Source: Maribacter sp. 4G9 (GTDB lineage Bacteria; Bacteroidota; Bacteroidia; Flavobacteriales; Flavobacteriaceae). From it: 64,000 bases of DNA. Shown here piece by piece: positions 1,475 through 28,300 of the stretch; positions within the stretch are counted from its first letter, which is position 1, and each line of letters starts with the position of its first letter. The notes under the pieces are model-generated. The model saw only the letters and a list, made by a program, of their open reading frames with translations, made no database searches and was not told the origin of the DNA. The stretch covers positions 1 through 64,000 of the forward strand of contig NZ_MDGL01000173.1 in assembly GCF_002742265.1 (NCBI RefSeq), read 5' to 3'. A program made the translations under genes and the position numbers.

Positions 1475-4039
1475 TTAAAGCTTGACGTTTTTTCCCAGGA
1501 GTTGCACCCTTCGAAGGTCATCGGCGGCTTGCCATAACTTGTTTTTAAGGGAAGGGTTTAATTCAGGGTTTTCCTTTAAATAGTCCTGCATGATTTGATA
1601 GGCTTCCGGGCTGGTATGGTTGCCTATGGAATTACTGAGCCAGCGTTTTGGAAAGAAAATATCGCCTGTTTTTTGTATTTCATCCAAAAGGTCTAAACTG
1701 GCCCTAATGTGTTTCAAGGCAAATTCTTGGTGCAGGGGATGATTAATATTATTCAATGCCGATGCGGTCCACGCTTCCTTTGAACGGTTCTTTTCATATT
1801 TTAGGGATTCCATAAAGCTGCTTTTGACCGATGCATCCTGGGAAACGGAGGGTAGCAGGAAGTTGAAGCGTTCCAATTTGTCCGGATTGTCAAGGGCATT
1901 TTTGGCTTGCTCTAAAATTTCGGCCGATTTAGGATGTTCGTAAAGGGCCAGGTGCAAGGCCATTTCGGTAAAGTCATCCTTATTCAGTCGAAGATTGGAT
2001 ATCTCGATTTTTTTGGACCAAATATCGTACAACTGTTGGATGGAAGCTCCCGTGTAGGCCACCATCTGAAAGGTTGAGAACAAGGTTTTTTTATTGTTCG
2101 GGGAAAGGTCCTTTTGCAGCTGGGACCACAAATTATCGGTGAATTTGGATTGCTCCAAGCGCCGTTCTTCTACCGTTAGGTATTTCCAGAATAAGGACCT
2201 CAAATAACCTGATAACAAATTCGATAACAATTCATTCTCTTCCAGATACAATCGGTTTTCATAAAAACTAAGTAGTTCCAAAGGTTCCATAGTCCCGTTC
2301 AAAGTAGTTTCATAGGCATTTATGTACAAGGAACCTCTAGCGACTTCATCGTCTATAATCGTTATGGTCTCAAAAACTTCTGGATGTATAGGAAATACGC
2401 CATATCCCATACCATCCCAATTATAAAAGACCGCCAAGGGTTTTGGAAGTCCGATGGCTTCGGTTACTTTTACGGTGTTTCCGGTAAACTCCAAAGGAAA
2501 TCTTTGAATGGTATCGGCGTAGATTAAGGATATCTCAAAAATCTGGGGCCAAATATGGTCCGATCCATCTTCTGCCATTTGTCTTAATTCCAAAGATGAG
2601 ATGCTACCATTGGGAGTATATGATATGCTATCCTTGAAAATGGGTCTTCCCGACCGGTTCACCCAGACATCGCTCCATTCCAGAAGGTCCATATCCGTTA
2701 GATTGTCCAAAATTTTCACGAGATCGTTCCAATTAGCGTTTGAGTTTTGATAGGTTTTAATGTATTCCTGAATACCTTTTTGAAAGGTTTCCTTGCCCAA
2801 GAGCGCTTCCAATTGGCGCATCATGATAGGGGCTTTGTTATAAATGATACTCCCATACAGGGAACCTGCATTATTTAGGTTTTCCAATTCCTGCCTAATG
2901 GGATTCGTACCTTTTGTGCGGTCTTCGCCGTAAGCGCTTGGATAGTGACCCACCGCAAATGACAGTTCATGGTTTATGGAAGGAAATGCGGGATTCACGA
3001 TTTTGTCCGCCATAAAATTTGCAAACACCTCCTTCATCCAAACGTCATTGAACCAGTCCATCGTAACCAAATCCCCAAACCACATATGGGAAGTTTCATG
3101 GGCGATTAGTTTGGCCCTGCCCAGTTTCCTGTTTTCCGTGGCACTGGCGTCCAGAAAAAGCGAACTTTCCTTGTATTGGATGGCCCCCACATGTTCCATG
3201 CCACCATATTGAAAGCCCGGAATCGTGGCAAAATCAAGTTTTTGAAAGGGGAATGGAAAGTCGGTATAGTTCTCTAGGAATTTTTTTGAGTTATGGTGCA
3301 ATTGAAAAATGGAATCTATGCTGTACTTGATTTTTTCTTCATCGGTTTCCCGATATAGCATCTTCATTGGGAAGTTGGCTATTTCCATTTCTTTGGACTC
3401 GAATTTTCCGGCCACGAAGGAAAAAAGATAGGTGCTCATTTTGTCCGACTCCCCAAACTGATGTTCTGTAAACCCATTGGAAGTAATTTGATCGAGTTCT
3501 GGAGCGGCACAGAGTAATTTCCATGTTTCAGGGGCAGAAATTTTTAGGGTATATGTCGCTTTTAAATTGGGTTGGTCAAAACAAGGGAATAATGTTCGTG
3601 CACGGTCTGGAACCAAGAGTGTGTATAAATAGTCCTCATTTCTGTTTAGGGAAAGTTCTCCCGCCAAAAAATCGATTGCTATGGTGTTTTTGCCCTCAGT
3701 TAAATGAATAGCGGGAATTGCGATATGTTCGTTTTTGTGATTGATTATTATTTGAGTACCGTTGACCAAAATTTTCTTTAAATGGTCCGTTTCTTCCTTG
3801 AAATCCAAATAAAGCGTATCGTTCCCCACAAATTCAAAAGTCAGGTTTTCGTGAGCGGTAATGGGTGTTTTGGTATCATTAGGAATGGTAAAATGGAGAT
3901 CGTATGTCACATCATTAATGGTGTTCGTCCTCTTCTTGGCCAATTGAATGGATACACCCTGTTCTATCTGGTCATTAGCTTTGTTCGTCCGTTTACAGGC
4001 AAATATGAGAACTACAAAAAGCAAAAGGGTATGGCGCAT
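1475..4039 (-). CDS. M1 family metallopeptidase (aminopeptidase N-like lipoprotein)
   Basis: Zinc aminopeptidase of family M1, expected to remove N-terminal residues from peptides outside the cytoplasm. The frame has the zinc motif H-E-T-S-H followed 18 residues later by the third ligand Glu (in K-E-V-F-A-N-F), and the exopeptidase motif G-G-M-E-H in place of the commoner GAMEN. The N-terminal beta domain and long helical C-terminal domain are both present, so the length (about 854 residues) fits the family. I placed the start at 4039 rather than the longer reading to 4087, because M-R-H-T-L-L-L-F-V-V-L-I-F-A-C is a typical lipoprotein signal ending in a lipobox Cys. It faces the DUF819 gene across about 110 bases, with divergent transcription. 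Confidence 0.93.
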   Translation of the reverse strand: MRHTLLLFVVLIFACKRTNKANDQIEQGVSIQLAKKRTNTINDVTYDLHFTIPNDTKTPITAHENLTFEFVGNDTLYLDFKEETDHLKKILVNGTQIIINHKNEHIAIPAIHLTEGKNTIAIDFLAGELSLNRNEDYLYTLLVPDRARTLFPCFDQPNLKATYTLKISAPETWKLLCAAPELDQITSNGFTEHQFGESDKMSTYLFSFVAGKFESKEMEIANFPMKMLYRETDEEKIKYSIDSIFQLHHNSKKFLENYTDFPFPFQKLDFATIPGFQYGGMEHVGAIQYKESSLFLDASATENRKLGRAKLIAHETSHMWFGDLVTMDWFNDVWMKEVFANFMADKIVNPAFPSINHELSFAVGHYPSAYGEDRTKGTNPIRQELENLNNAGSLYGSIIYNKAPIMMRQLEALLGKETFQKGIQEYIKTYQNSNANWNDLVKILDNLTDMDLLEWSDVWVNRSGRPIFKDSISYTPNGSISSLELRQMAEDGSDHIWPQIFEISLIYADTIQRFPLEFTGNTVKVTEAIGLPKPLAVFYNWDGMGYGVFPIHPEVFETITIIDDEVARGSLYINAYETTLNGTMEPLELLSFYENRLYLEENELLSNLLSGYLRSLFWKYLTVEERRLEQSKFTDNLWSQLQKDLSPNNKKTLFSTFQMVAYTGASIQQLYDIWSKKIEISNLRLNKDDFTEMALHLALYEHPKSAEILEQAKNALDNPDKLERFNFLLPSVSQDASVKSSFMESLKYEKNRSKEAWTASALNNINHPLHQEFALKHIRASLDLLDEIQKTGDIFFPKRWLSNSIGNHTSPEAYQIMQDYLKENPELNPSLKNKLWQAADDLRRVQLLGKNVKL

Positions 4040-4150
4040 AGGTTTGGTTTTATGTAGAAAAGTAGCGATTATAATAAGATGGTACAAGTCATTTATGGCA
4101 TTGCTTCAAGAAGAGGTATTTGCCGTATACTTTTTAGTATCTTGTGCGCA

Positions 4151-5284
4151 ATGAGCTTTACAAACCAACCTATATACGTACTAGCTGTACTTTGCTTAAT
4201 GGTGCTACTATCAATATGGGCAGCTAGGACGGCATGGGGCAAGCCTCTTGGTGCGGCACTTTTGGTCATACTTTTCACAGCTGTTCTGGCCAATTTGAAC
4301 CTTATTCCATCGGCATCCAATAGTATACCTTTATATGATGGAATCTTTACCTATTTGGCCCCATTATCTATCTTCTATCTTTTGTTGGGCGCAAATCTTC
4401 GTGAAATAAAAAAAGCCGGAATTCCCATGTTGGCCCTTTATTTATTAGGTTCATTGGCCACGGTATTAGGAATCTTTATGGCGTGGCACCTTATGGGTCC
4501 AGAAAGGGTATTGGGGGAGGATGCCAAGGTAGTGGCGGGCATGTTGACGGGTACATATACAGGGGGCAGTGTAAATTTTAATGCCGTGGCCTTGATTTAT
4601 GGCTTTCAGGAGAAAGGACTATTGTACGCCGGCACCATAGCTGTTGATAATGTGGTGACCGCCGTATGGATCGTGGCCACGATTGCCATGCCCAAATTAT
4701 TAAGGGGATGGATCAAAGACAAAAACCTGAGTACCTCAGGTGGCGAGATAAGTGACCAGCACGAGGAAAAAATGGATATTTCATCGCTGGCACTGGTTTT
4801 GGCCATTGGTCTGGCGGCCTTGTTTCTTTCTGAAACGATTCAGTCTTGGTGGCCCAAAGTACCAAGTATTTTGGTCATTTCAACCTTGGGAATTGTCCTG
4901 GCGCAGTTTTCCTTTATTAAAAAGCTAAATGGGACCCATACCTTGGGGTTATATACGGTATTTCTCTTTTTGGCCGTTATTGGTGCTTATTGTGAGATTG
5001 GTGCAGTGCTCGAGCTTAGGCAAGTAGGGTTGGCCCTTTTGGGCTTCACTTTGGTTGCAGTAGCCTTTCACGGAGTGATTATTATAATCTTGGGAGGACT
5101 TTTCTTCCGGGATTGGGACATGGTGGCCATTGCCAGTCAAGCCAATGTGGGTGGTGGTGCCTCGGCCATTGCCTTAGCGGAAACTTTTGGCCGTAATGAA
5201 TTGATTTTGCCGGCCATTTTAGTGGGCACTTTGGGGAGCGCCCTAGGAACCTATCTTGGTTTTTTTGTGGTTTCCGTGTTATAA
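4151..5284 (+). CDS. DUF819 family membrane protein (YjcL-like)
   Basis: Polytopic inner-membrane protein of about 377 residues and roughly ten hydrophobic segments. The DUF819 signature is clear: L-L-L-G-A-N-L after the second or third helix, and G-T-Y-T-G-G-S-V-N-F near residue 140, repeated in divergent form as N-V-G-G-G-A-S-A near the C-terminus, which suggests an internal inverted repeat as in many secondary transporters. No substrate has been established for the family as far as I know, so none is assigned. I chose the ATG at 4151 (M-S-F-T-N-Q) because the 24 codons in front of it add a non-membrane, basic stretch overlapping the divergent promoter region. The stop lies 4 bases from the convergent thioredoxin-like gene. 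Confidence 0.85.
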   Translation: MSFTNQPIYVLAVLCLMVLLSIWAARTAWGKPLGAALLVILFTAVLANLNLIPSASNSIPLYDGIFTYLAPLSIFYLLLGANLREIKKAGIPMLALYLLGSLATVLGIFMAWHLMGPERVLGEDAKVVAGMLTGTYTGGSVNFNAVALIYGFQEKGLLYAGTIAVDNVVTAVWIVATIAMPKLLRGWIKDKNLSTSGGEISDQHEEKMDISSLALVLAIGLAALFLSETIQSWWPKVPSILVISTLGIVLAQFSFIKKLNGTHTLGLYTVFLFLAVIGAYCEIGAVLELRQVGLALLGFTLVAVAFHGVIIIILGGLFFRDWDMVAIASQANVGGGASAIALAETFGRNELILPAILVGTLGSALGTYLGFFVVSVL

Positions 5285-5288
5285 CCCT

Positions 5289-5819
5289 TTACTTTGCCCC
5301 TGAATAGGTCTTCCAATCCTTTTCTTTATAGATATCATCGCCAAAGTATTTGGCAATGTTCAGAAATGGCTCCGGTTTTTGGTAGCCTGGTACGGGAGAA
5401 AGCATATTAAATTCTTGGTCCAGAAATATAGTCGTAGGATAACTTAATCTTCCCTGCATCAAGGCGGCGGCCAATTCGTGATAGCCATTTCTTCCCGAAG
5501 GCACAAATTTGTAGGTTTTTCCCTTAAAATCGATAGGGTCCTTACCTTCGCCGTCAAGCTTTACCATATAGAAGTTTTCTGTCATGTAGGCAGCTACTTC
5601 CGGATTTTGAAAGGTATCCTTGTCCATTTTTTTGCACCATCCGCACCAATCTGTGTAGACATCAATAAACACTTTCTTGGGATTTTTATCCGTGGCGGCC
5701 AACTCTGCCGCTTCGTTCCAAGTAAGCCATTTGACTTCTTGAGCCGTGACCCCTAATGAAATAAATAAAAAGGATACTAGAAAAAGGTTTTTGATAAGCA
5801 AAACGACGTTAGTACTCAT
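5289..5819 (-). CDS. Secreted thioredoxin-family protein (CGWC)
   Basis: Small periplasmic thioredoxin-like oxidoreductase of 176 residues. An N-terminal signal peptide ends near V-T-A-Q-E (residues 1-27). The redox motif C-G-W-C sits near residue 60 in the context D-V-Y-T-D-W-C-G-W-C-K-K-M, and the cis-proline loop S-Y-P-T-T-I-F follows in the C-terminal half, so the fold looks complete. Such thioredoxin_7/DUF255-like proteins are common in Bacteroidota envelopes and reduce or handle misfolded secreted proteins; a specific partner cannot be read from this context. A TAGCTTTG box lies upstream on the same strand at 5858-5851. The gene is convergent with the DUF819 gene and divergent from nothing close. 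Confidence 0.88.
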   Translation of the reverse strand: MSTNVVLLIKNLFLVSFLFISLGVTAQEVKWLTWNEAAELAATDKNPKKVFIDVYTDWCGWCKKMDKDTFQNPEVAAYMTENFYMVKLDGEGKDPIDFKGKTYKFVPSGRNGYHELAAALMQGRLSYPTTIFLDQEFNMLSPVPGYQKPEPFLNIAKYFGDDIYKEKDWKTYSGAK

Positions 5820-5850
5820 GTTTTAAATGGAGTTAGTCCAACAATTATAC

Positions 5851-5858
5851 CAAAGCTA
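5851..5858 (-). promoter_or_regulatory. Putative -7 box for the thioredoxin-like gene
   Basis: On the minus strand the bases read TAGCTTTG, a full match to the Bacteroidota -7 consensus TAnnTTTG, 31 bases before the ATG at 5819. No good TTG element is visible at the usual -33 distance. Confidence 0.4.
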
Positions 5859-5875
5859 ACGTTTTTTTTGGGTCT

Positions 5876-7114
5876 TTATTTTACTTTTTCCGTTTGCCTT
5901 ACTTCAAATAGGTCTTTTACATCTAACTGATTTTTAATCAAATCGTCAAAGGTTTCCCGTTCCCGTATCAAAATGGCCTTTCCCTTATGCCATAAAACCT
6001 CCGGTGGCCTAAATCTTGAATTATAATTACTGGCCATAGTAAAGCAATAGGCCCCGGCATTTTTAAAACATAGGATATCCCCTTCAGATATTTCATTGAT
6101 CCTTCTATTACTGGCAAACGTATCAGTTTCGCAGATATAGCCAACTACGGAATAATAGCGCTCCCTTCCTTCCGGATTGGAAATGTTTTCAATGGAATGG
6201 GTGGCACCATAGAGCATGGGCCTAATCAAATGGTTAAAGCCTGTATCCACACTTGCGAAAACCGTGGAGGTGGTTTGTTTTACCACGTTTACTTTTGCCA
6301 AAAAGAATCCGGCCTCACTGACCAAAAATTTCCCTGGTTCAAATGCCAAGGTCAATTCCTTCCCGTATTCCTTACAAAAGGCGTTAAATCTGGTGCCCAA
6401 CTTTTTACCGAGTTCCTCCACATTGGTCTCAATGTCCCCTTTTTTATAAGGTACTTTAAAACCGCTTCCAAAATCTATGAAGTCTAAATTTTTAAAATTC
6501 TTGGCCGTTTCAAAAAGTATTTCAGAAGCATATAGAAAGACATCAATATCCAAAATGTCACTTCCCGTGTGCATATGGATACCGTTGATGTTCATTTTTG
6601 TGAGCTCAACAATGCGCAATAAATGTGGTATTTGGTGAATGCTGATACCAAATTTTGAATCAATATGTCCTACGGATATTTTAGAATTGCCCCCCGCCAT
6701 TACGTGCGGATTTATTCGAATACAAACCGGGATGTCAGGATGCTTGCTTCCAAATTGCTCCAGAATGGAGAGATTGTCGATGTTTATCCTAACACCTAAT
6801 TTGGCAGCTTCCTCAATTTCTTCTAACGAAACTCCATTTGGGGTGAATATAATGGACTCCGGTTTGAAACCTGCCAATAGACCTAACTGGACTTCCTGGA
6901 TGGAAACGGTATCCAGGCCACTGCCCAAACTGTTCATCAATTTTAGAATGGTAATATTGGAAAGTGCTTTTGCCGCATAATTCAATTTCAAATTCTTTAC
7001 GGTTCCAAAGGCCTTGGTAAGACGATTGAACTGGGAACTTATTTTTTCGGAATTATACACATAAACGGGGTCTCCGTAGGTTTTGGCGATTTTTAGTAAA
7101 TCCGCATTGTTCAT
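5876..7114 (-). CDS. lysA: Diaminopimelate decarboxylase
   Basis: Pyridoxal-phosphate enzyme that decarboxylates meso-diaminopimelate to L-lysine, the last step of lysine synthesis, in the cytoplasm. The alanine-racemase-like barrel carries the cofactor lysine at about residue 49 (Y-A-A-K-A-L), the H-T-G-S-D-I phosphate-binding area, the glycine-rich G-S-G-F-K-V-P turn, and the C-terminal C-E-T-D-T-F active-site segment with Cys. Length, 412 residues, is normal. The open frame continues upstream, but the added 56 residues are low-quality and overlap the promoter, so I start at the ATG at 7114 (M-N-N-A-D-L-L-K). A well-spaced promoter with an internal inverted repeat lies at 7132-7163. dapD of the same pathway is found at 47 kb. 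Confidence 0.95.
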   Translation of the reverse strand: MNNADLLKIAKTYGDPVYVYNSEKISSQFNRLTKAFGTVKNLKLNYAAKALSNITILKLMNSLGSGLDTVSIQEVQLGLLAGFKPESIIFTPNGVSLEEIEEAAKLGVRINIDNLSILEQFGSKHPDIPVCIRINPHVMAGGNSKISVGHIDSKFGISIHQIPHLLRIVELTKMNINGIHMHTGSDILDIDVFLYASEILFETAKNFKNLDFIDFGSGFKVPYKKGDIETNVEELGKKLGTRFNAFCKEYGKELTLAFEPGKFLVSEAGFFLAKVNVVKQTTSTVFASVDTGFNHLIRPMLYGATHSIENISNPEGRERYYSVVGYICETDTFASNRRINEISEGDILCFKNAGAYCFTMASNYNSRFRPPEVLWHKGKAILIRERETFDDLIKNQLDVKDLFEVRQTEKVK

Positions 7115-16927: not shown

Positions 16928-18358
16928 TCAACGTTTGAGCGTGAAGTGCCCTCTTATCTCTTTATTTGTAAATGAAATTGCCCTGAACCAATAATCCGAA
17001 GCGGGCATTTGCCTCCCATTGAATGTGCCGTTCCAGCCTGTGGATTTTGGGTCGATCTGTGCCAGAAAATTACCGAAGCGATCAAAAATATGAATCACCT
17101 CATAAGGTATTTCATCAGAATTCTCTGATTGCCTATACTGCCAAAAATCGTTGGTTCCGTCCCCATTAGGTGTGAAAAAGGCAGGAAAATCCTGTGGTGA
17201 CAATTCTTTTTCTATAGATCTTTCCGCAATTCCGCAGCCATTAATATCCCTAACGTAGACGGTTCTTTCCCCAGGTTCAACATTCATGAAGACCGGACTA
17301 TTTTGAAAAGTGGAATCCGTACCATCCAGTGAATACTCGAAATTTCCGGCACCTTCCGTTCTAATATCCAAGGTCAATCCAGAATTTTGCCGGGTAATCA
17401 ACACGTTCGAAATTATAGGAGGTTGCGAATAGACGACCTCAAAATTTTTCGAAACGGGACATTCTATGGTTGCCCCAAATTGATTTAGGGTATTATACAA
17501 TTCCAAGCGGTAATCCCCTACTTGCTCGTATCTGAGTTGCGATGTTTCTGAAACTATAGTTTCGGACCCATCCGAATCGATAAAAATCCAACGATATCCC
17601 CTAGCACGATCGGGAGCTGTTATAAGGCCAAAATCCTCATTTTCACAAAGTGCTATTTTATCAGGAATGGAAATAGTAGGAAAATCCGAATCCTGACAAC
17701 TTACCGTGGGTGTCCCCGTGGTGAAACTTTCCTCTATACATCCCGTGGCCGCGCCATTTTCATTTAAAGGAACGATTAAAACATAATATTCCTGATCCAA
17801 TTCAAGGTCATCCCTAAAACCGTATACCAGTCTATTTCCAGTCAATTCATTATTGACCATATCGTAATTGCCAGGAGAGGTGCCAACGGAAATTCTGTAG
17901 TCCGTTGCACCAGGAGCATATTCCCATTGAAGGTTTGTATTCACCCTAACTTCTGTTTCATTATTTTGTGGGTTGAATAGTCTCGTGCATTGGGGTGGAT
18001 CCGTAACCCTTTCTGTAGTAAATACTCTTAACGGGCAAACTCTTATGGGAGCATCCGGAAGAAATAAACTTATGGTAACATAAATTACGGTGTTAGATGG
18101 TAGGCCCACTTCAGGTTGATAAAAATTATTGAGCCCGGAGGATCTTCTGTTTATAATTTCTCCACCTCCGGGAGTGGTTCCTAATGATACCAAGTACCCT
18201 ATGATACCATCGACCGCCGTCCATTGGATTAGATTGTCAACGGGAACGTCTATATCTCCATCCAATGGGGAAATTAGGGTAGGGCATTGTTGGGCATTGA
18301 CATGCATCTGGCAAAAAAACCACAATGCTAAAAGTAAAAATGTAGGTTTTACGCCCAT
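16928..18358 (-). CDS. T9SS type B sorting domain surface protein (two Ig/Fn3-like repeats)
   Basis: Secreted protein of 476 residues. Residues 1-22 form a signal peptide. Two repeats of about 95 residues follow, each starting C-P/C-T-x-L-x-x-P-x-(N/D)-x-(E/D) and containing I-x-W-x-x-x-x-G-x-x-x-Y-x-(V/I)-S-x-G-T-x-P-G, an Ig/fibronectin-III-like unit. After a middle region comes the type B (gliding-motility-associated) sorting domain, about 395-476: F-F-T-P-N-G-D-G-T-N-D-F-W, F-D-R-F-G-N, and a closing W-F-R-A ... G-H-F-T-L-K-R. This domain sends the protein through the outer membrane by the type IX secretion system. It starts 5 bases after the stop of its paralogue at 18364-20133 and is probably co-transcribed with it. 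Confidence 0.9.
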   Translation of the reverse strand: MGVKPTFLLLALWFFCQMHVNAQQCPTLISPLDGDIDVPVDNLIQWTAVDGIIGYLVSLGTTPGGGEIINRRSSGLNNFYQPEVGLPSNTVIYVTISLFLPDAPIRVCPLRVFTTERVTDPPQCTRLFNPQNNETEVRVNTNLQWEYAPGATDYRISVGTSPGNYDMVNNELTGNRLVYGFRDDLELDQEYYVLIVPLNENGAATGCIEESFTTGTPTVSCQDSDFPTISIPDKIALCENEDFGLITAPDRARGYRWIFIDSDGSETIVSETSQLRYEQVGDYRLELYNTLNQFGATIECPVSKNFEVVYSQPPIISNVLITRQNSGLTLDIRTEGAGNFEYSLDGTDSTFQNSPVFMNVEPGERTVYVRDINGCGIAERSIEKELSPQDFPAFFTPNGDGTNDFWQYRQSENSDEIPYEVIHIFDRFGNFLAQIDPKSTGWNGTFNGRQMPASDYWFRAISFTNKEIRGHFTLKR

Positions 18359-18363
18359 AAAAT

Positions 18364-20133
18364 CTACCTTTTTAATATAAAATAGCCTTTTACCTCTTTG
18401 TTGCCTTCAAACTGAGCCTTAAACCAATAATTGGATTCAGGAAGAGCTTTGCCGTTCAACCTACCATCCCAGCCCAATGAATCAGGATGTAATTGTGCCA
18501 GAAGGTTGCCGTATCTGTTGTAAATATATATACTCATTAGGCGGTCATCACCCGGTTTGGTTTTGACCCTATACTGCCAAAAATCATTGGTTCCATCCCC
18601 ATTTGGTGTGAAGAATTTTGGAAAGCCTTCAACGGTCAAATCTTGTTGTATTGTTTTCTCGGTTACGCCACAGCCGTTTATATCCCGAACATAAACAGTA
18701 TGGGTTCCAGGGGTAATTCCGCTGAAGTTATTGGAAGCTTGATAGGCACCTTCTGGATTATCCAGGGCAAATTCATAGTTTCCATTACCTTCCACTATGA
18801 CCTCAAAATTCAAACCATCAAACACCTCCGTTACCCGAACGTTTTCAATGGTTGCAATAGAGGATTCTTCTACCCTAAATATTTTTGACGTTGAACATTC
18901 AATCGCACCGGAAGAACCATCAATTACATTATATATTTCATGGATATAATCGCCGGCTTGATCAATTGAAACGTCCCTCTCGATTGAAATCAGGTCTTCG
19001 TTTCCGTTTAAATCTATTCTATACCATCGATATCCGTCGGCCTCATCGGTAGCTGATACAATAGTATCGCTGTCGTTTCGGCAAATTCCTATCGTATCCG
19101 GAAAAGTAATCTCAGGGTTTAAAACAATCAATTCATTTGTTATAGGGTGAAAGTAGGGCCCACACCCCAGTAAGGTAGAAAAAGTTTCCTGGGAGCAACC
19201 AATCGCTTCACCCGCATCATTGAAAGGTACTATTTTGATAAAAAAAGTTCGGTTGGGCTCAAAATCGATAACCATTGTGGACGTCCTGAAAAATGCGGCA
19301 TTGTTCAATATATCGGTCTCAAATGGATTAGTACCTATAGAGACTCGATACCCAGTCGCATTGGGTACTTCATTCCATTCCAAGATAGGACTTAAGGGTA
19401 CATTTCTTTCGCCGTTAAATGGAGTAATTAGATTGGTGCAAACAGGCAAGACTGCCTCGCGGGCTGTCGTAAAAACAAATGTAGTGCAATCCAATGCCGC
19501 ATCAATCCTATTGTAAGGTGCTATGGTTACATAAATAGTTGTCTCTGTAGGTAGGTCGCTAGTTGGGTTATAGCTAAGAGTATTTCCAAGATCGGTAGTT
19601 GGAACAAGCTCGTTTCCATTTGGTGTCGTTCCCATCGTGAAGAGATACCCAGTGGCACCAGGAGCATAGGCCCAAGAAATATTAGTGGCGGTATTTACAT
19701 CTATAGCATTGTTCGTAGGATTGGAAAGGAAAGTACAACCAGGTGCTTCGGATAGTGCAGCAGTTGTAAAACTTTGGCTTTCGCACGTAATATTGGCTTG
19801 GTTGAAGAAGAACAGGGTTATGGTGACAAAGACTTGTGTATTCTCGGGTAAACCAGTGGGAGGGGTATATCGATTGGACGATCCAACGTTTAGTTCGTCC
19901 AAAATGTCCCTGCCTCCTTGGGTAGTCCCTAGGGAAATGATATACCCGGGTACACCCTCAATAGTCTTCCAAGATATGGATGCTGTTGTGGCGACCTGAT
20001 TTTCTCCGTTAAGCGGGCCTACCAATGCCGGACACTCCTGCGCCAAAATACTGGAATTAGAAAATAACATCAACATTATAAATATCGGCATAGCCAATAC
20101 GTTACATATTGATGAACCCTTTTTCATTTTCAT
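18364..20133 (-). CDS. T9SS type B sorting domain surface protein (three Ig/Fn3-like repeats)
   Basis: Paralogue of the downstream protein, 589 residues, with one more repeat. After a signal peptide (about 1-31, ending I-L-A-Q) come three Ig/Fn3-like units with the shared pattern P-x-N-G-x-x-x-V, I-S-W/L-E-W and G-T-x-x-x-G/N, then the region with F-P-D-T-I-G-I-C-R-N-D, and the type B sorting domain from about residue 505: F-F-T-P-N-G-D-G-T-N-D-F-W, Y-N-R-Y-G-N, and an ending G-Y-F-I-L-K-R. It should be carried across the outer membrane by the type IX system and attached to the cell surface or released. Substrate or partner unknown. No PorP/SprF-like partner gene, often linked to type B proteins, is adjacent. 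Confidence 0.9.
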   Translation of the reverse strand: MKMKKGSSICNVLAMPIFIMLMLFSNSSILAQECPALVGPLNGENQVATTASISWKTIEGVPGYIISLGTTQGGRDILDELNVGSSNRYTPPTGLPENTQVFVTITLFFFNQANITCESQSFTTAALSEAPGCTFLSNPTNNAIDVNTATNISWAYAPGATGYLFTMGTTPNGNELVPTTDLGNTLSYNPTSDLPTETTIYVTIAPYNRIDAALDCTTFVFTTAREAVLPVCTNLITPFNGERNVPLSPILEWNEVPNATGYRVSIGTNPFETDILNNAAFFRTSTMVIDFEPNRTFFIKIVPFNDAGEAIGCSQETFSTLLGCGPYFHPITNELIVLNPEITFPDTIGICRNDSDTIVSATDEADGYRWYRIDLNGNEDLISIERDVSIDQAGDYIHEIYNVIDGSSGAIECSTSKIFRVEESSIATIENVRVTEVFDGLNFEVIVEGNGNYEFALDNPEGAYQASNNFSGITPGTHTVYVRDINGCGVTEKTIQQDLTVEGFPKFFTPNGDGTNDFWQYRVKTKPGDDRLMSIYIYNRYGNLLAQLHPDSLGWDGRLNGKALPESNYWFKAQFEGNKEVKGYFILKR

Positions 20134-20227: not shown

Positions 20228-21061
20228 TTATAGATCACGTTTTTTTAGCAATATAAAGGACGAATAAATGAAAATTGCGGTCCAAGTGATAACAATTAAA
20301 AATTCCCACCAGTGAACGTGGTAATTAAGATTGATATGCTCACCAACTTGATCTGCTACCGTCTGAACGGCTTCCAGCCGGGTAAAGGGCTCCTTGATAA
20401 GATTAAACATGGATTGCAAGGGGAAAAAGCGCATGATGACCTCTGCAGTTTCCCGCCCAAATAGTTTCCATTGCATGAGACCTGCGGCAATACCTTCAAA
20501 AATTTGCCACAAAATCAAAAACCCCAACGCAAAGGCAGAACGTTTTACTAGGATTCCCAGAAAAAGACAGAATGAGAAGAAGCCCATCAGTTTAAAAAAG
20601 AAGGCGGCCAAAAATTCCAAATCTGAAAATATGATGGACAGTTCGTCATAATCAGAATAAACAAGTCCCAAAATCAAGGAAACAATGAACACAAAGAGCG
20701 TAGAGGCGGCGGAAAATGAAACTACAGTTAAGAATTTGGATAGTATGAACTCTTTCTTTGAAAGTCCGTCGATCAAATTCTGTTTAATAGTCTTATTACT
20801 GTATTCGTTGGACATCATGGAGACAATGACAATGGCCAAAAATAGCTTGAAAAAGGCTGTAACAAAAGTGTTGAAATGCCATATATAGGGAAAATTGAAG
20901 ATGCCAATTTCGGCCAAATGGAATTTAACCGGACCAATATCAAACTTTATTGCGGCAACTAGCGCTATAGAGGTTAGAATGAAAAAATAGGAAATAATCA
21001 ACACCTTGCTGGCCCTATTGTTCCAAAGTTTTATGAATTCTATCTGCAAAAGTCGTATCAT
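20228..21061 (-). CDS. ABC-2 type transporter permease
   Basis: Membrane subunit of an ABC transporter, 277 residues with about six hydrophobic segments and a large loop after the first. The N-terminal M-I-R-L-L-Q-I-E-F-I-K-L-W-N-N-R is typical of ABC-2 permeases, as is N-E-Y-S-N-K-T-I-K-Q-N-L-I-D-G-L-S-K, the coupling-helix segment that contacts the ATPase. The ATPase gene lies 9 bases upstream, so the two form an operon. Exported substrate cannot be read from the sequence; such gene pairs often export lipids, peptides or antibiotics. It is embedded between surface-protein genes. Confidence 0.88.
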   Translation of the reverse strand: MIRLLQIEFIKLWNNRASKVLIISYFFILTSIALVAAIKFDIGPVKFHLAEIGIFNFPYIWHFNTFVTAFFKLFLAIVIVSMMSNEYSNKTIKQNLIDGLSKKEFILSKFLTVVSFSAASTLFVFIVSLILGLVYSDYDELSIIFSDLEFLAAFFFKLMGFFSFCLFLGILVKRSAFALGFLILWQIFEGIAAGLMQWKLFGRETAEVIMRFFPLQSMFNLIKEPFTRLEAVQTVADQVGEHINLNYHVHWWEFLIVITWTAIFIYSSFILLKKRDL

Positions 21062-21070
21062 GTTTTTGGC

Positions 21071-21973
21071 TTAGTTTGATTGATTTTTGGTCAAGGTCAG
21101 GAATTGCTCCTCAAGGCTTTCCTTTCTTTTTACAAGGTGCGATAGCACAATCCCTTCTTTGTAGAGTGCTTCATTTAGGGATTTTGCATCCATTTCCTCT
21201 TTTAAAAAGGCCGTTATCAAGCCATTCTCATGCTTTATTTCACCGAATTTTTTGTGGAATTCTAATGCTACGGCCAGTTTTTCCATGTTGTCCGATTTTA
21301 GTTCAAAGAACCCATAAGTGGCCATCATGCCATCGACCAGGCCAGAATATAACTTTTCCCCTTTTCTGAGTATGATCACATGGCTGCAGACTTTTTCGAC
21401 CTCGTCCAATAAATGGGAAGCCAGAAGAATGGTGGTTCCTTCAGAGGCTATTTTTTTTATGATTTCCCGGATTTGGTGAATACCTTGGGGATCTAAACCA
21501 TTTGTAGGTTCGTCCAAGATTAAAATTTCAGGATCATTGAGTAGGGCAGAGGCAATGGCCAAACGTTGTTTCATACCTAAGGAATAGGTACTGAACTTAC
21601 TGTTCCTCCGATCTAAAAGGCCTACCAATTCAAGCTTTTCATCAATTTTGCCCGTGTCAACCTCTTTAATCTTACATACCAATTTCAGGTTTTGGACGGC
21701 CGTCATGTACGGATAGAAATTGGGCCGTTCGATTATCGCCCCTACTTTTTTCAAGGCCTCATGAGTAGAAGTGTTACCATCAAACCAATAAAAATCGCCG
21801 CTCGTTTTGTTCACTACGTTTAGGACAATACCCAAAGTGGTGGATTTTCCACTTCCGTTGGGGCCTAGAATACCATAAACATTGCCTTTTTCAATTGAAA
21901 AGGACAAATCTTTTACGGCGGTCAAATAACCAAATTTCTTGGTAAGATTGTTAACAGTAAGTATAGTGCTCAA
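21071..21973 (-). CDS. ABC transporter ATP-binding protein
   Basis: ATPase subunit of 300 residues pairing with the permease 9 bases downstream. Walker A is G-P-N-G-S-G-K-S (about 38-44), the signature is Y-S-L-G-M-K-Q-R, Walker B is I-L-I-L-D-E-P-T-N-G-L-D-P, and the switch His lies in L-L-A-S-H-L-L-D-E-V. The last 80 residues form the extension usual in ABC-2 (DrrA/CcmA-like) ATPases. The start codon appears to be TTG at 21973, since no ATG precedes the first strand (S-T-I-L-T-V-N-N-L). Together the pair is expected to move a substrate out of the cytoplasm using ATP. Confidence 0.92.
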   Translation of the reverse strand: MSTILTVNNLTKKFGYLTAVKDLSFSIEKGNVYGILGPNGSGKSTTLGIVLNVVNKTSGDFYWFDGNTSTHEALKKVGAIIERPNFYPYMTAVQNLKLVCKIKEVDTGKIDEKLELVGLLDRRNSKFSTYSLGMKQRLAIASALLNDPEILILDEPTNGLDPQGIHQIREIIKKIASEGTTILLASHLLDEVEKVCSHVIILRKGEKLYSGLVDGMMATYGFFELKSDNMEKLAVALEFHKKFGEIKHENGLITAFLKEEMDAKSLNEALYKEGIVLSHLVKRKESLEEQFLTLTKNQSN

Positions 21974-22042
21974 AGCAAGTAGTGTTTTTTGATTGATTGT
22001 ACTTACTTGACGAGCCAGTATAAGATTTGTTACAATAAAAGC

Positions 22043-25000
22043 CTAATTCTTGTTGACCCTAATGGTTATTCTTCGATTGGTGATGATGGTCCTTGGGCCT
22101 ACTGTTAGTGTTGCAGGGGCAGAGACCGTATTTCCGCATACAAAGGTGTCGCTGGTAATGAGGACCCGGTACTGATATCCGTTCTTGTCTACTTCCGGGG
22201 TTATGACGGTCAGGGTGTTTGTTGTTGTTCCGCTATAATCGGGTCCATCGCTAATATCCATAAAGGTGGTGCCCCCATCAGTGCTTACCTGCCATTGGTG
22301 GGTGTCACCGTTATCTGTTATTGAAAAGGTGTCGTTGGTATTTACAAAGGTTTTGGAATCCAAGGGCTCAACGCTTATGACAGGCACTGCCCCTGTTTCC
22401 TGAAATTCAAATGTACCATTGGTATCCACATCGGCAGGGGTAGGGTAGGCCGCGGCAATAACTGTTCCGTCAGGGTTTACGGCAGGTACCCCAGAACCGT
22501 AGACCATGTCATCGCCGCCATCGGCATTGGAGTCGTTATAGGCCTCATTGGAGTCGGAGCAGCTGTCATTGTCCGCATCAAGATCAAGATGGTCCGGGAA
22601 AGCATCGGCATCGCTTCCACAGGAGGAAGGGTATAATATTGAAAAGGGAATGTTCTGTTTTGCTATGGATGGACCTTGATATTGCACGATGAGATTATCA
22701 CCCCCAGTGCGTTCGAAAAACACGATTTCCAGCCAATGAAATCCAGCCGCAAGCGAAATAGTTCCGGATTCCTCGTTCATGGCATGAAGGCCGTCATTGT
22801 CAACCACTTCAAGGGCATCAATAAACAGCTTTGAACCATCATCTGAATTTGTAAAAAAGGTATAGCTGCCGCCCGTGGCGATTTCAATATAACCGGTATA
22901 CCGAACCGAATACGTTTCGCCATCCCCAGGCGTATGGGTGGCCGCCAGACCGGATACATCGATGTTGGTTGCCACTCCGGTTGCAAGTGCCCCAGAAGTA
23001 GGAATATTATCTACCGTATTGCCTGCTGGCGACACATTGTAAAATTCATAATCCAAGCCTCCTGAGCAACTATTGAGTTCCGTAGCGTCATAAATTCCAT
23101 CGTTGTCATCGTCTTCATCCGAAATATCGACAATGCCATCATCGTCAAAATCGTTATGGATAATGACGGATACGTTTGGATTGTCCGAAGTGATATTGTT
23201 ATCGGTTTGATCCTGACTGTTGGTGACCGAATTGGTGACCGAGACCGCAGGAACAATCGAATTGTTTGCATGCGCTACCACTGTAATGGTCATCGTTTCC
23301 AACTGACCACTGTTCAAAGTGCCAACGTTCCAATTGGGAGCTGTCCAACTGCCTTGCGATGCAGTGGTCGAAAGAATGGAAAGTCCGGATGGTATAGGGT
23401 CTGAAACAACAAGATTGGTAGCCGGGTCAATACCCAGATTTTCGACCGTTATGGTAAAGGTTACATTATTCCCTTCCGATATGGTCGTAACATCCGCAGT
23501 TTTATTGAGCACAATATCGGGGTTACAATAATAAACCGCTATGGAATTCGAGTCATAACTACAAGGACCTCTGGTGACCCTTAAGTAATAATCTCCCGCC
23601 GTGGTTGCCGTATAAGACGATGACGTGGCACCAGGAATCAAAGCCCCATCGCTATACCATTGGTAGGCATCAAAGACTTCGCCCGATGCAATTTCCAATA
23701 TGGCACCTGGAAGGCAACTGTTGCCCGTAATTTGTAGATCGATATTCGGGACCGTATCAAATCCCGAATAATATCCGGCCAGACCCCTTGCTCCATTGAA
23801 ACCAAAAAAACCAACGGCTATGGGTCCGGTGGATTGTACGCTAACATTACCCGTTAGACTGGGAAGGTAAAAGGTTTTCCAATCTGTAGTGCCGGCAACA
23901 GGTGAGGAGGCAGGAAGTGTTACAACACCTCCACCATCGGTTACTGTGATGTTGGCATCCGGCGTGGTCGTAGCGGCAATGATGGTCACTCCGCCCGTAA
24001 TTGCCACTCCCGCCGCATCCGTAATGCTGGGAATGTTGTCCATCGTATCGGGCAGAAGACAATTTACCGGGGCCACAAAATTCAGGCCTTGGGTATACGC
24101 TGCTGTTGAGCCACCAACACATTGGTAAGCATAGACATCTTTTGAGGTTTCTATATACATGTTCGCCCCTACGGAGTTTGAAGAATAGTTGCTACTCGGT
24201 ACTTCTATAAAATCACCCTCATTCAACGTAGCGATTGGTGTAGGGGACCCATTGACGAATACTTGGGTGTTGTTCTCCGTTGCAATGATCAATGGAAACT
24301 CCGTCCATCCGTTACTATTACCATTTCCCCGAACAAAAATATATTCCTTGCCCAATCGGTTTTCGGGTACGGGTTGGTCTATACCCGCATCCCTGTTACT
24401 ATTGCCTACTTGTCTACCATAATTCAGGGAGCCGTTGCTAATGACGATATCCTTATCGGCAACGATGGAAGCTCCGATCCATCCCCTTTCATGTGCCAAG
24501 GTAGGAGAGTTTCCGATATAGGTTTCATAGACGAAGGACTCATTTGCATCCAAGGTAATCGTGTGGGAGTTTGCCGTAATTCCGGCTCTATTGTTGCCCA
24601 CCCGAAATTCACAGTTGGGGTCATAACCCGAAAGGGTAATGGTTGTATTATCTTCAGTGGCCATAATCCCCAAGGTGTTCGATTTGGAAACATGGCTGCC
24701 CAGATTGGGTACACCGCCCCACTTAAAATTGGTTCCCATAGCTACCCGACCCTTCGAGGTCAAGGAGGCCGCTTGGGAACCAGACCGACCCCGATAGTTT
24801 ACATAAAAATTTTGCCCACCGGTAGACTCAAATCGAAGTCCGCTATTGGTCAATACCACTCCGGTACTGTTATTGGTCACCAAAGTGATATCATTATCAC
24901 CATTGGGAAGGTTATAGATAGCAGGTGCCACATTGGAAATACTAAACGAATTAATGGGAACGGGATTCGTACCCCGATATACATTTACGGTAAACGCTGT

Positions 25001-25159
25001 AGTTTCCGGTGTTGAAAGGTAAACGGCCTGTTGTTGAATGGCCCCATTATTCTGTCCTTGCCGTAAAGGTGGTAAATAATGTAGGTCGCTCAATTGGGCA
25101 TGTGAATATCCTACAACTAAAAAAAGTACTAATAAAAGTATCTTCTTTGAAGGGTACAC
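22043..25159 (-). CDS. Large cell-surface protein: IgGFc-binding-like head, DUF11, TSP3, PA14
   Basis: Secreted protein of about 1038 residues. In order: signal peptide ending S-H-A-Q; an IgGFc-binding-like head of about 430 residues (from [10 protein letters not shown], with [10 protein letters not shown] and [10 protein letters not shown]); an Ig-like unit with Y-Q-W-Y-S-D-G; a DUF11 domain; an acidic D-x-D-x-D-G calcium-type repeat; a PA14 domain ([17 protein letters not shown]); another calcium-type repeat; an Ig-like unit; and a short tail [13 protein letters not shown]. The head to the first calcium repeat parallels the giant protein at 25344-37784, but there is no type B sorting domain. 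No ATG is available; I prefer GTG 25159, just before K-K-I-L-L-L-V, over TTG 25192. Confidence 0.85.
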
Positions 25160-25290
25160 GTTCTTTATTTTTAGTAAACCATTGAACTGCAAATAAAAAA
25201 GGAATGTGTAGGGAAGGCAAGAGTTTGTTGTGAATAGGCCATTTCTTGTGGTATTTCATCGATCAAGTCAATGAAAAAGGCCTTTTGGTA

Positions 25291-25343: not shown

Positions 25344-28300
25344 TTAACGATATAGGGTAAAATGCCCTATAAACTCTCTTTTATCTTCTTCACCGTTCAA
25401 TTTAAGAATATACCAGTAGTCACCTGTTGGTAAATCGGTATCCTGATAAAGTCCGTCCCAGCCATTATCACCTGCCAAGATATATACCTCGCGACCGTAC
25501 CTATCAAAGATCTTGATGAAGATATCAGGATATTGTTCGATATTTTTGGGAATCCATGTATCATTTTCCCCATCTCCGTCAGGAGTAAAGAAGTTGGGTA
25601 TTTCGATATCAATGAACTCCATGTAAATGGTGGCTAACGCCTCACATCCGTAGGCATCAACTACTGTTACCGTATAGGTATCCGTACGGGTAATGAATAT
25701 GGTATTGTCCTGCCCGTTGTTCCTATCGCCAAAATAGAAGGTGTAATCACCACTTCCGCCAGAGGCGACCGCAGTAATCTCATTAAGATTGTTCTGTTCC
25801 AAGGTCAGCTCCAAGGGTTCAAAACTCTGCACTTCAAATTCAATGGTATTGGTACAACCATTTGCATGAACCAATAGGATATAATGGTTTCCAGGGGCCA
25901 AATTGGCAAAATCAGGTTCTAACATATAATCATTGGGGTCCATGGAGTCCAAAGCATACAGAACATCCCCGGCCACACTTGGGTCTTCCAATACCAACTC
26001 GATTCGGTTATCCGGAGTATCCCCGGAACATTCGTATATAATCTCTGCCGTGGCATTGAGGTTGGCACCGTTCTCAACAGTTATGGTCTGGTTGGTTGTA
26101 CATCCATTGGCATCCCTTACAAAGACGATATACGTACCTCCTGCCAAGTTTTCAAAGAGCAGACGGTCTTGTACGAAATCCGCATCCTCATTGGAATTAA
26201 GGGCCGTACTATAAGGTGCCGTACCTCCGGTTGCCGTTATTTCAATTGTACCGTCTTCATCTCCAGCACATACTTCTGGCGTACTGGTAGCTTCCATTTG
26301 GAGAGGTTCAGGAGCGATCAGTTCAAATTGGATAACTTCAAAACAGCCATTATCATCCTGTACAATCACCGAATACGAACCTTCTTCCAGTTCATCAAAA
26401 GTGTTTTGATCGTCAAATTGGTTCAGGTTGGGTGAAATAGCAAATTGATAATTACCCGTTCCCCCTTGAACATCCAAGGTAATGGCGCCATCATTGGCAT
26501 CTGCACAACTAATATCCGTTATATTAGGAGTTACCACAAGAGGAGCGGGTTCATCGATTTGTACCCCTTGGGATACGATCTCACAATCCCCACTTTGTAC
26601 CCTTACGTAGTAGGTTCCCATAGGAAGGTCTGCAAAAGTACCGTTGTTCTGGTTAGGCCTTACCTCATCGGTGGTGGCTGCATCCCTGAAAAGGGCAAAT
26701 TGATAATTTCCTAGTCCGCCATCGGCATCGGCCATAATCAAGGCGGTAGCCTCACCGCTACAATTAATGAATGCTGCGGATGGGTCAACGTTTACAGTTA
26801 ACGGAGGAACATCTTCCACGCCCACGGAATTGGATAGGATGGATATACAACTGTTACTGTCCATAATGTAATACCGATAATTTCCAGCGGATACATTGGA
26901 GAACAAATGCGTATCTGAAGTAATGGTCTCGTTCATTGGGTTGAAGGAAACGCCATCGATACTCCACTGATAGGGAGCCGTTCCGCCCGAAGCTACCAAT
27001 AAAAGTTCCGCACCGTTCTGGCAGGTCATGGGCTGGTTTGTGACCAATAGTGCCTCTACGTCCGTAGGTTCAATGATGTCTTCATTGAAGGTAGCGGTAC
27101 ATCCCATATTATCGGTTACCAATACACTATAGAAACCAGCGCCCAAATTGTTGAACGTTGGATTCGTTTGCGAAACCGAAGTACTCAACAAGGTAGTTCT
27201 CGCCGCATCTGCATAATTATTTAGTACATAACGATAATTGGTCGTAACGTTTCTTGGGCTCAAGGTTACCATAATAGAGGCATTTGTGTCGCCTTCACAG
27301 ACCAAGGCCGTACTTGACGTGCTACCGGTTATTGGATCAGGTACTACCAGACTAAAGCTATTGGTACCAGTTAGCTGGTTACAACCCAATGCATCGGTCA
27401 CAGTGACCGTATAATTTCCTGCGCTCAGTCCTTGGAATACATGACTAAATACGTTGTTCTGGGACACCGGAGTACCCAAAGCAGGCGTAAGCGTTATGGT
27501 ATACGGACCTTGTCCGCCGGCAGGCGTTATGGCCGCGGCACCTTGATCGTTGGAACAACCTACATCGGTCAGGACAATCGGATTCAATGTTATCGGCGCA
27601 GTTGGCGTATTGATCGTAAACGACCTTTCTTGGAAACATTCTGGAAATGCATCTTGGGTCACTCTCACTATATAGTTTCCAGCAGCTACCAGAATCCCCG
27701 AAACAGTACCGGAACCTGTAAGGGTACCTGCATCGTCCGTTCTAGTTGTTGGGCTTCCATCCGTATTGAAAACTTCCCAACTATAATTTCCCGTATATGT
27801 GGCATCGGCCACGTTGAGGTCTATGCTTCCATCATCTCCAAAGCAAACCACATTGCTTATATTGGCGATAGTAATGTCAAAAGTATTGGGTGCCGCAACG
27901 GTATGGGATACCATAACCTCACAGCCCGTATTGACATTTAATACGCCGAAAGTATACGTACCAGAGGCCAAATCAAGGAATGCATTACTTGCCTGATAGG
28001 CGCTGGAAGGCAACTGCCTGAATTGATAGTTGGCCGGGTCGGTCGCGAAGCTTGTCACGCTGCTAATGATATCTATTGAAATGTCCTCTCCGGCATTCGT
28101 ACAACTAATAGGACTGTCCACATGAACGGTCGGTATGCCCATCAAATCGAACGGTGCTATGGTAGCCGTACTAGTTCCTACACATCCTTGATCATCATAT
28201 ACATTGATTGTATACACACCTCCGGCAATATCGGTTTCAATATAGGAAGGGCTTGTTCCGGACTGAACCGTTACTGGGACCTCAACGGCAACCGTATTTG

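Follow-up and report, generated by a model that had tools for sequence, protein, structure and literature searches.

What could direct a large surface protein to its place, or hold it there, when it ends in a short basic peptide and not in a T9SS sorting domain? The question is raised by one gene in the window (the whole 64,000-nucleotide stretch of Maribacter sp. 4G9 DNA analysed). Its product, here the window protein, runs from a Sec signal through an IgGFc_binding domain, a DUF11 domain, calcium-type repeats, a PA14 domain, a second set of such repeats and an Ig-like unit to a C-terminal tail (Table 1). The open reading frame, its end and the tail were as described in an earlier note made from the letters alone. 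Of the domains named there, the Ig-like unit and DUF11 held, the "head" proved to be the IgGFc_binding domain, PA14 had been missed, and the calcium-type repeats are visible by eye only, Pfam listing none there; two further Pfam matches, SH3_10 and 2OG-FeII_Oxy, fall under their cut-offs. The GTG start at 25157-25159 and the signal cleavage site were judged by eye; an automatic ORF call began at an earlier TTG at 25192 (ORF 22043-25192), and the GTG is the more probable start. The absence of a T9SS sorting domain was borne out, with no NCBIfam match to one at E ≤ 1, TIGR04131 (type B) and TIGR04183 (type A) included. A normal sorting domain hidden behind a 3' frameshift, a danger that the earlier note had raised, was ruled out: the next gene begins 69 bases past the stop, so there is no room for a hidden domain.

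Table 1. Positions of the window protein, its parts and neighbouring or related genes (window coordinates unless a locus is named).
Feature	Position	Strand	Remarks
Tail-bearing surface protein (window protein)	22043..25159	minus	~1040 residues, GTG start
Sec signal peptide	25097..25159	minus	typical Sec signal; cleavage before Q, by eye
IgGFc_binding domain	23801..24769	minus	Pfam E 9.1e-43; residues 142-464
DUF11 domain	23180..23518	minus	Pfam E 4.2e-21
PA14 domain	22646..22933	minus	Pfam E 1.5e-13; residues 754-849
Last Ig-like unit	22097..22378	minus	folded with confidence by AlphaFold2
C-terminal tail, 18 residues	22046..22099	minus	directly before stop codon 22043-22045
Conserved 15-residue part of tail	22046-22090	minus	within the tail
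ABC ATPase gene	21071-21973		next gene, begins 69 bases past window protein stop
Adhesin, 4146 aa	25344..37784	minus	upstream of window protein; ends in type B CTD
Type B T9SS sorting domain of adhesin	25347..25607	minus	TIGR04131, residues 4060-4146, E 2.3e-24
Type B CTD protein near tail gene	16928-18358		TIGR04131 E 1.4e-30
Type B CTD protein near tail gene	18364-20133		TIGR04131 E 3.1e-29
Fibre-like giant, L301	to 8915
Fibre-like giant, L302	7724-14764
Fibre-like giant, L303	5712-14288
Fibre-like giant, L304	6422-18331
Fibre-like giant, L305	9200-9796
Fibre-like giant, L138

To see how the tail relates to the domain before it, the last 150 residues of the protein were modelled with AlphaFold2 (137 alignment rows). 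The Ig core reached a pLDDT of ~97 and the tail was a coil falling to 68; the best Foldseek matches of the modelled Ig domain were Robo and titin Ig domains and the like. Two ideas, a tail integrated into the Ig fold and a type A CTD in disguise, were rejected because the model shows an ordinary Ig domain with the tail lying outside it. As modelled, the tail is most likely an exposed peptide and not part of a folded CTD.

The earlier note tentatively suggested that other flavobacterial proteins have similar endings, and would have been refuted by a tail that occurs nowhere else. The suggestion was borne out: the same ending was found on 145 distinct proteins in the DNA examined. A degenerate-DNA pattern for NRRITx[YSFI]RV fitted three places in the Maribacter genome and none for a reversed control pattern; all three end a protein, and the Ig domains that precede them differ while the tail is nearly invariant. 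The recurrence of the tail is not chance. A profile of the Ig domain plus tail matched many genera, and 19 of 20 regions taken from its matches carried the tail, the exception being L053. With a 20-column profile of the tail only, built from 32 peptides, five C-terminal copies were obtained in the Maribacter genome at E ≤ 2.3e-5, and one further match (E 0.9) is not a tail. The five tails are a considerable number next to the type A CTDs, of which only eight pass the cut-off in this 4.6 Mb genome. One tail gene of this genome is apparently split by a frameshift or an assembly error (L140 on C189; a 918-aa ORF at 2851-5607, then a 341-aa tail ORF at 5636-6661).

The tail-only profile found the tail in 71 of 397 genomes and 46 of 237 genera of the Flavobacteriaceae, with 172 tail matches in the family genome table, including a few remnants or very short frames. 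In a draw across the phylum, 7 of 395 genomes had the tail, all of the window's family. In a draw across the order, 13 of 376 genomes matched; 12 are of that family, and the one match outside it, weak and partial (E 0.003, model positions 3-14, 76-aa frame), was taken as chance. Across these 395 and 376 genomes convincing tail matches are confined to one family, a result that reaches only as far as the two draws extend beyond it. A pattern search of a named collection, in which 336 stretches fitted and 43 were confirmed (a few records bearing no genus), placed the tail in Maribacter, Croceivirga, Cellulophaga, Croceitalea, Allomuricauda, Flagellimonas, Robiginitalea, Pareuzebyella, Pricia, Arenibacter, Eudoraea, Aquimarina, Zobellia, Pseudozobellia and one Flavobacterium sp. 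The strings ITNRRIT, TNRRITY, NRRITYRV and TNRKITYR were not found in the searchable literature, from which subscription journals are mostly missing, and topic searches of titles and abstract starts gave, among the papers listed, nothing on such a tail, which is not proof of absence. Judged from these sequences, the tail is probably a real, widespread and, as far as the literature search reaches, undescribed C-terminal signal. A decayed tail remnant was also seen downstream of an intact tail gene (L108, ~6846-6905, minus strand), as though gene replacement had taken place in the array; a second, putative remnant lies in a 50-aa frame (G638:C22:108533-108592).

We asked which features of the tail are conserved. 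The consensus of the last ~15 residues is T-[VI]-I-T-N-R-[RK]-I-T-[YHIVF]-R-V-[NK]-[KP]-N at a free C-terminus. The core residues were loosely required by the search expression and hence are no independent evidence of conservation; the strict form ITNR[RK]ITxRV fits 115 of the 145 tail proteins. Conservation extends to sites that the search did not require, namely the preceding T/S (138/145) and V/I (135/145), the Y/H/I/V/F site and the final N-K-N. Exactly three residues follow the core in 137 of the 145 distinct proteins (two in 6, four in 1, five in 1), and this near-fixed distance from the core valine to the end suggests, by its conservation, that a receptor reads the free carboxy end. Internal copies of the tail were absent from every ORF of at least 60 aa in the loci examined, which had been chosen for tails. 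Across the 145 proteins the core sites use the full set of synonymous codons for I, T, R and V; therefore selection acts on the peptide. The codon usage bears on a reading in which the ending is conserved for some other reason: because it caps the last domain structurally, marks a recombination seam or is constrained at the level of DNA or RNA. Tail genes in tandem, and the decayed remnant downstream of one of them, would accord with such a reading. It nevertheless appears very improbable and is already largely refuted, by the codons, by the unrelated domains that the tail follows and by the unpacked state predicted for it in the one model made.

The proteins that carry the tail are diverse. 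Among 16 whole tail proteins the Pfam domains over cut-off were IgGFc, DUF11, PA14, Big_9, cadherin-like, PKD, HYR_4C, Calx-beta and beta-helix; a C-type lectin domain was borderline (22.7 bits against a cut-off of 22.6 in one protein, under it in others), and TSP3 stayed under its cut-off. The C-terminal 150 residues of 137 tail proteins matched mostly Ig and DUF11-like families in Pfam. Some intracellular families (SH3_10, WWE_4, 2OG-FeII_Oxy, DnaJ and others) were matched weakly in Pfam and NCBIfam; these matches were taken as chance. The diversity of domains rules out a tail bound to one protein family, and no common part other than the tail was noticed among its bearers in a search that was not exhaustive. 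The N-terminus lay within the available DNA for 124 of the 137 proteins and was Sec-like in 117 of these, as called by a home-made hydropathy rule and not by SignalP; no lipobox was found among the 124. Two of the seven that failed the rule are signal-like just below its limit (L046, L127), and five look like broken or partial frames. When the last 150 residues of the 137 proteins were compared with NCBIfam at E ≤ 1, no T9SS domain (TIGR04131, TIGR04183) was among the matches listed, which cover 25 of 52 families, namely every family with at least two members matched and singletons down to E 0.0059. Similarly, no T9SS domain was among the Pfam matches listed (25 of 37 families), and five further tail proteins matched no NCBIfam family at E ≤ 0.01. 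The sequence checks that the earlier note had proposed came out in its favour: the bearers have signal peptides at the rate given, no known CTD appeared among the matches listed for the 137 proteins or, at E ≤ 0.01, on the five others, and no cytoplasmic bearer turned up.

The lectin-like family allows endings to be compared on related proteins. A profile of the lectin-like body, made without the tail, gave 63 matches in 59 of 199 family genomes. Twelve of these proteins end in the tail and 44 in a CTD, never in both; the remaining 7 are cut by contig ends. All 44 CTD-ending proteins match TIGR04131, which on the tail lectins was not among the matches listed (7 proteins) or gave none at E ≤ 0.01 (the other 5). 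In five of the 12 lectin tails, one or two positions differ from the core consensus. Genome G108 has both endings of the lectin, in two tail copies and one type B copy; two other genomes (G102 and G120) have a type B lectin and carry tails elsewhere. A tree was built from the 56 complete lectin domains, leaving out the 7 contig-cut proteins; in it the 12 tail rows form one side of a branch (SH-aLRT 95), so they represent one change of ending kept since, not twelve. The stretch between lectin domain and tail varies in this clade from only a few residues up to HYR and Ig domains together, with the tail always last. A second case of the swap, on alignment, is that of the window protein and the upstream adhesin: they are identical at 516 of 910 aligned positions (57%) and have the head in common, as the earlier note had seen, and the adhesin ends in a type B domain. 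On tree and alignment together, the swap events number about two (the lectin family, and the window protein with the adhesin), not 56. The Big_9 family was rejected as a further case: the search of the 199 genomes with the Big_9 body gave 5 full-length relatives (among them the protein of G572, L125), every one of which belongs to a tail genome and ends in a tail, diverged in one case, so that no swap is seen there.

The tail resembles the type B CTD (TIGR04131) in its C-terminal position, in the kinds of surface proteins that bear it and in genes that often lie beside porP/sprF, and it is an alternative ending within the same protein family. It differs in size and structure. The type B model has 85 positions, and functional work deals with 150-235 residues (PMC12618676), whereas the tail has ~15 residues, shows no folded domain in the model and has no detectable profile similarity to the type B CTD (hhalign probability 0.13%, a comparison to which the 22 columns give little power). 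The swap also bears on the possibility that the tail is an extreme short form of a type A CTD, a basic strand like motif E that PorV would recognise and the PorU sortase would cut off. The tail is, like type A CTDs (TIGR04183, PorV/PorU route), C-terminal and basic near its end. Motif E of type A is itself basic and its end is needed, and export can be achieved with very little, the 22 C-terminal residues of HBP35 being enough for GFP, according to PMC10202324; the short CTDs of Prevotella intermedia have only 40-55 residues with three predicted strands, as given in PMC11969387, and the tail is shorter still. We consider this reading improbable. The short CTDs described in the latter source keep motif B and mostly the G-x-Y motif D, neither of which is seen in the tail consensus; the tail is modelled as an unpacked coil after an ordinary Ig domain; TIGR04183 was not among the matches listed for the 137 tail proteins; and the partner in the swap is type B, not type A. 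By the sorting-domain models, the tail is not a member of type A or B.

We then considered the genes around the tail genes for a candidate reader. A common order of transcription, found in many genera, is a type B adhesin, porP/sprF, a TPR-PD40-OmpA gene like porE and one to four tail genes, followed by a fibre-like giant and a second type B adhesin with its own porP; most type B ends in these loci were judged by eye, and one was scored (TIGR04131 E 4.8e-12). The 317-aa neighbour protein is PorP_SprF (E 1.1e-90). The 644-aa TPR-PD40-OmpA neighbour matches CHU_0125_OmpA (NF053607, E 1e-119) and PorE (NF052230, E 3.4e-91), both below the cut-offs. In a comparison of 61 loci, many of them cut by contig ends, the porE-like kind was present at 33 and PorP at 25, the tail-less L053 being counted among both the 61 and the 25. 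Many tail genes stand alone, with no porP in the DNA examined, and several lie outside the fibre locus. In the window itself the order is type B adhesin, tail gene, ABC ATPase and permease (20228-25192), which is kept in other genera (L103, L136, L137; adhesin ends judged by eye).

A PorP subfamily, at 541 bits or more against at most 509 for the rest, occurs in 25 of the 31 tail genomes and in 3 of the 168 others; this bit limit was chosen once the gap had been seen, the profile was built from tail operons, the statistics ignore kinship, and genomes not positive in the 397-genome draw were counted as tail-less among the 199, on the assumption that all 199 belong to that draw. Two of the three exceptions (G077, G565) have porP and a porE-like gene and no tail or fibre genes in the downstream stretch; in the third (G135), type B genes, judged by eye, with their own porP stand where others have tails. 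With 6 of the 31 tail genomes lacking it and 3 tail-less genomes having it, the subfamily was rejected as a strict partner of the tail. SprA, the one T9SS part sought, and sought in tail genomes and controls only, was over the cut-off in 71 of 71 tail genomes against 0 of 14 control genomes. To our knowledge SprA is near universal in this family; therefore the 71/71 discriminates little.

The fibre-like giant beside the tail genes has a head like TTVTLQDQCNCEVLSG and a conserved C-terminus of its own, ending YN[STA]LINVVFVV[KR]; when the final 200 residues of the L302 copy were compared with NCBIfam, no family matched at E ≤ 0.01. From its sequence the giant may carry yet another signal. Its position also enters a further reading of the tail, as a docking tag and not an export signal: the protein would leave by other information, and the tail would then bind a surface acceptor (PorP, the giant or LPS). 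Tail genes do stand in tandem beside the giant and the PorP/PorE-like pair, and a basic tail, exposed as the model predicts, would suit a docking peptide. Against this, the lectin-family tail occupies the place of the type B CTD, an export signal, no other common part was noticed in the non-exhaustive search of the bearers, and several tail genes are found away from the fibre locus. On balance docking as the sole function seems unlikely.

We therefore favour, with some confidence, a short linear sorting signal that would replace the type B CTD, send its bearers out by the T9SS and probably be read by a PorP/SprF carrier. The parts of this proposal differ in strength. That the tail is a sorting or anchoring signal of some kind, as the earlier note had thought it could be, is very likely; its recurrence, the Sec-like N-termini and the alternation with type B (12 vs 44) support this, all of it comparative. 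Tail proteins rather probably take the T9SS route, on which the tail would probably work like a T9SS CTD, and a PorP/SprF-type carrier is a tentative candidate for the reader. The protein would cross the inner membrane by Sec, a crossing assumed from the signal peptide that is seen. In the periplasm the exposed tail would be recognised in place of a folded CTD, by an outer-membrane carrier of the PorP/SprF kind, for example the one encoded upstream of many tail genes, and the receptor would read the free carboxy end. The SprA translocon of the T9SS would take the protein out, and it would be held on the surface. T9SS export and surface holding are proposed because the tail swaps with type B CTDs and SprA is present.

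Published work on type B substrates is compatible with such a carrier. The substrates tested in PMC12618676 rely on cognate PorP/SprF carriers, and three orphan substrates share a single carrier there, in keeping with tail genes that are scattered over the genome; a complex of PorE, PorP and type B cargo is reported in PMC9143113. The T9SS is not the sole way out, since a CTD-less enzyme found outside the cells of another Bacteroidota is ascribed to outer-membrane vesicles in PMC6247017. In its broadest form the idea is more speculative: some 15 residues at a free C-terminus, not folded into a domain, could be a new class of T9SS secretion and anchoring signal, read by a dedicated PorP/SprF subfamily able to serve many clients genome-wide.

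A ChiA-type (type C) model, which NCBIfam should include, was not among the families listed for the window protein or the 137 tail proteins. Types A and B are the only ones named in the available text of PMC10994853; the type C CTD of ChiA, of ~100 residues (PMC10202324), is a third class of C-terminal T9SS signal, and the list of such signals is thus known to be open. The flavobacterial tail may also be compared with tags outside the T9SS. PEP-CTERM, GlyGly-CTERM and LPXTG are short C-terminal tags that recur on unrelated surface proteins of the same genomes, and they have a transmembrane helix and a processing enzyme. The flavobacterial tail is likewise short and recurring, but has no hydrophobic helix.

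Should the tail be sufficient, no shorter natural T9SS signal would be known to us, and it would offer a handle on cargo recognition by the translocon and its carriers, which is hard to obtain with folded CTDs, whose length is roughly 40 to 235 residues. A further use could be as a handy tag for protein display on harmless marine bacteria. Because tail proteins match no T9SS sorting-domain model tried, the predicted secretomes of marine flavobacteria, among them Maribacter, Zobellia, Cellulophaga, Aquimarina and Arenibacter, would be undercounted.
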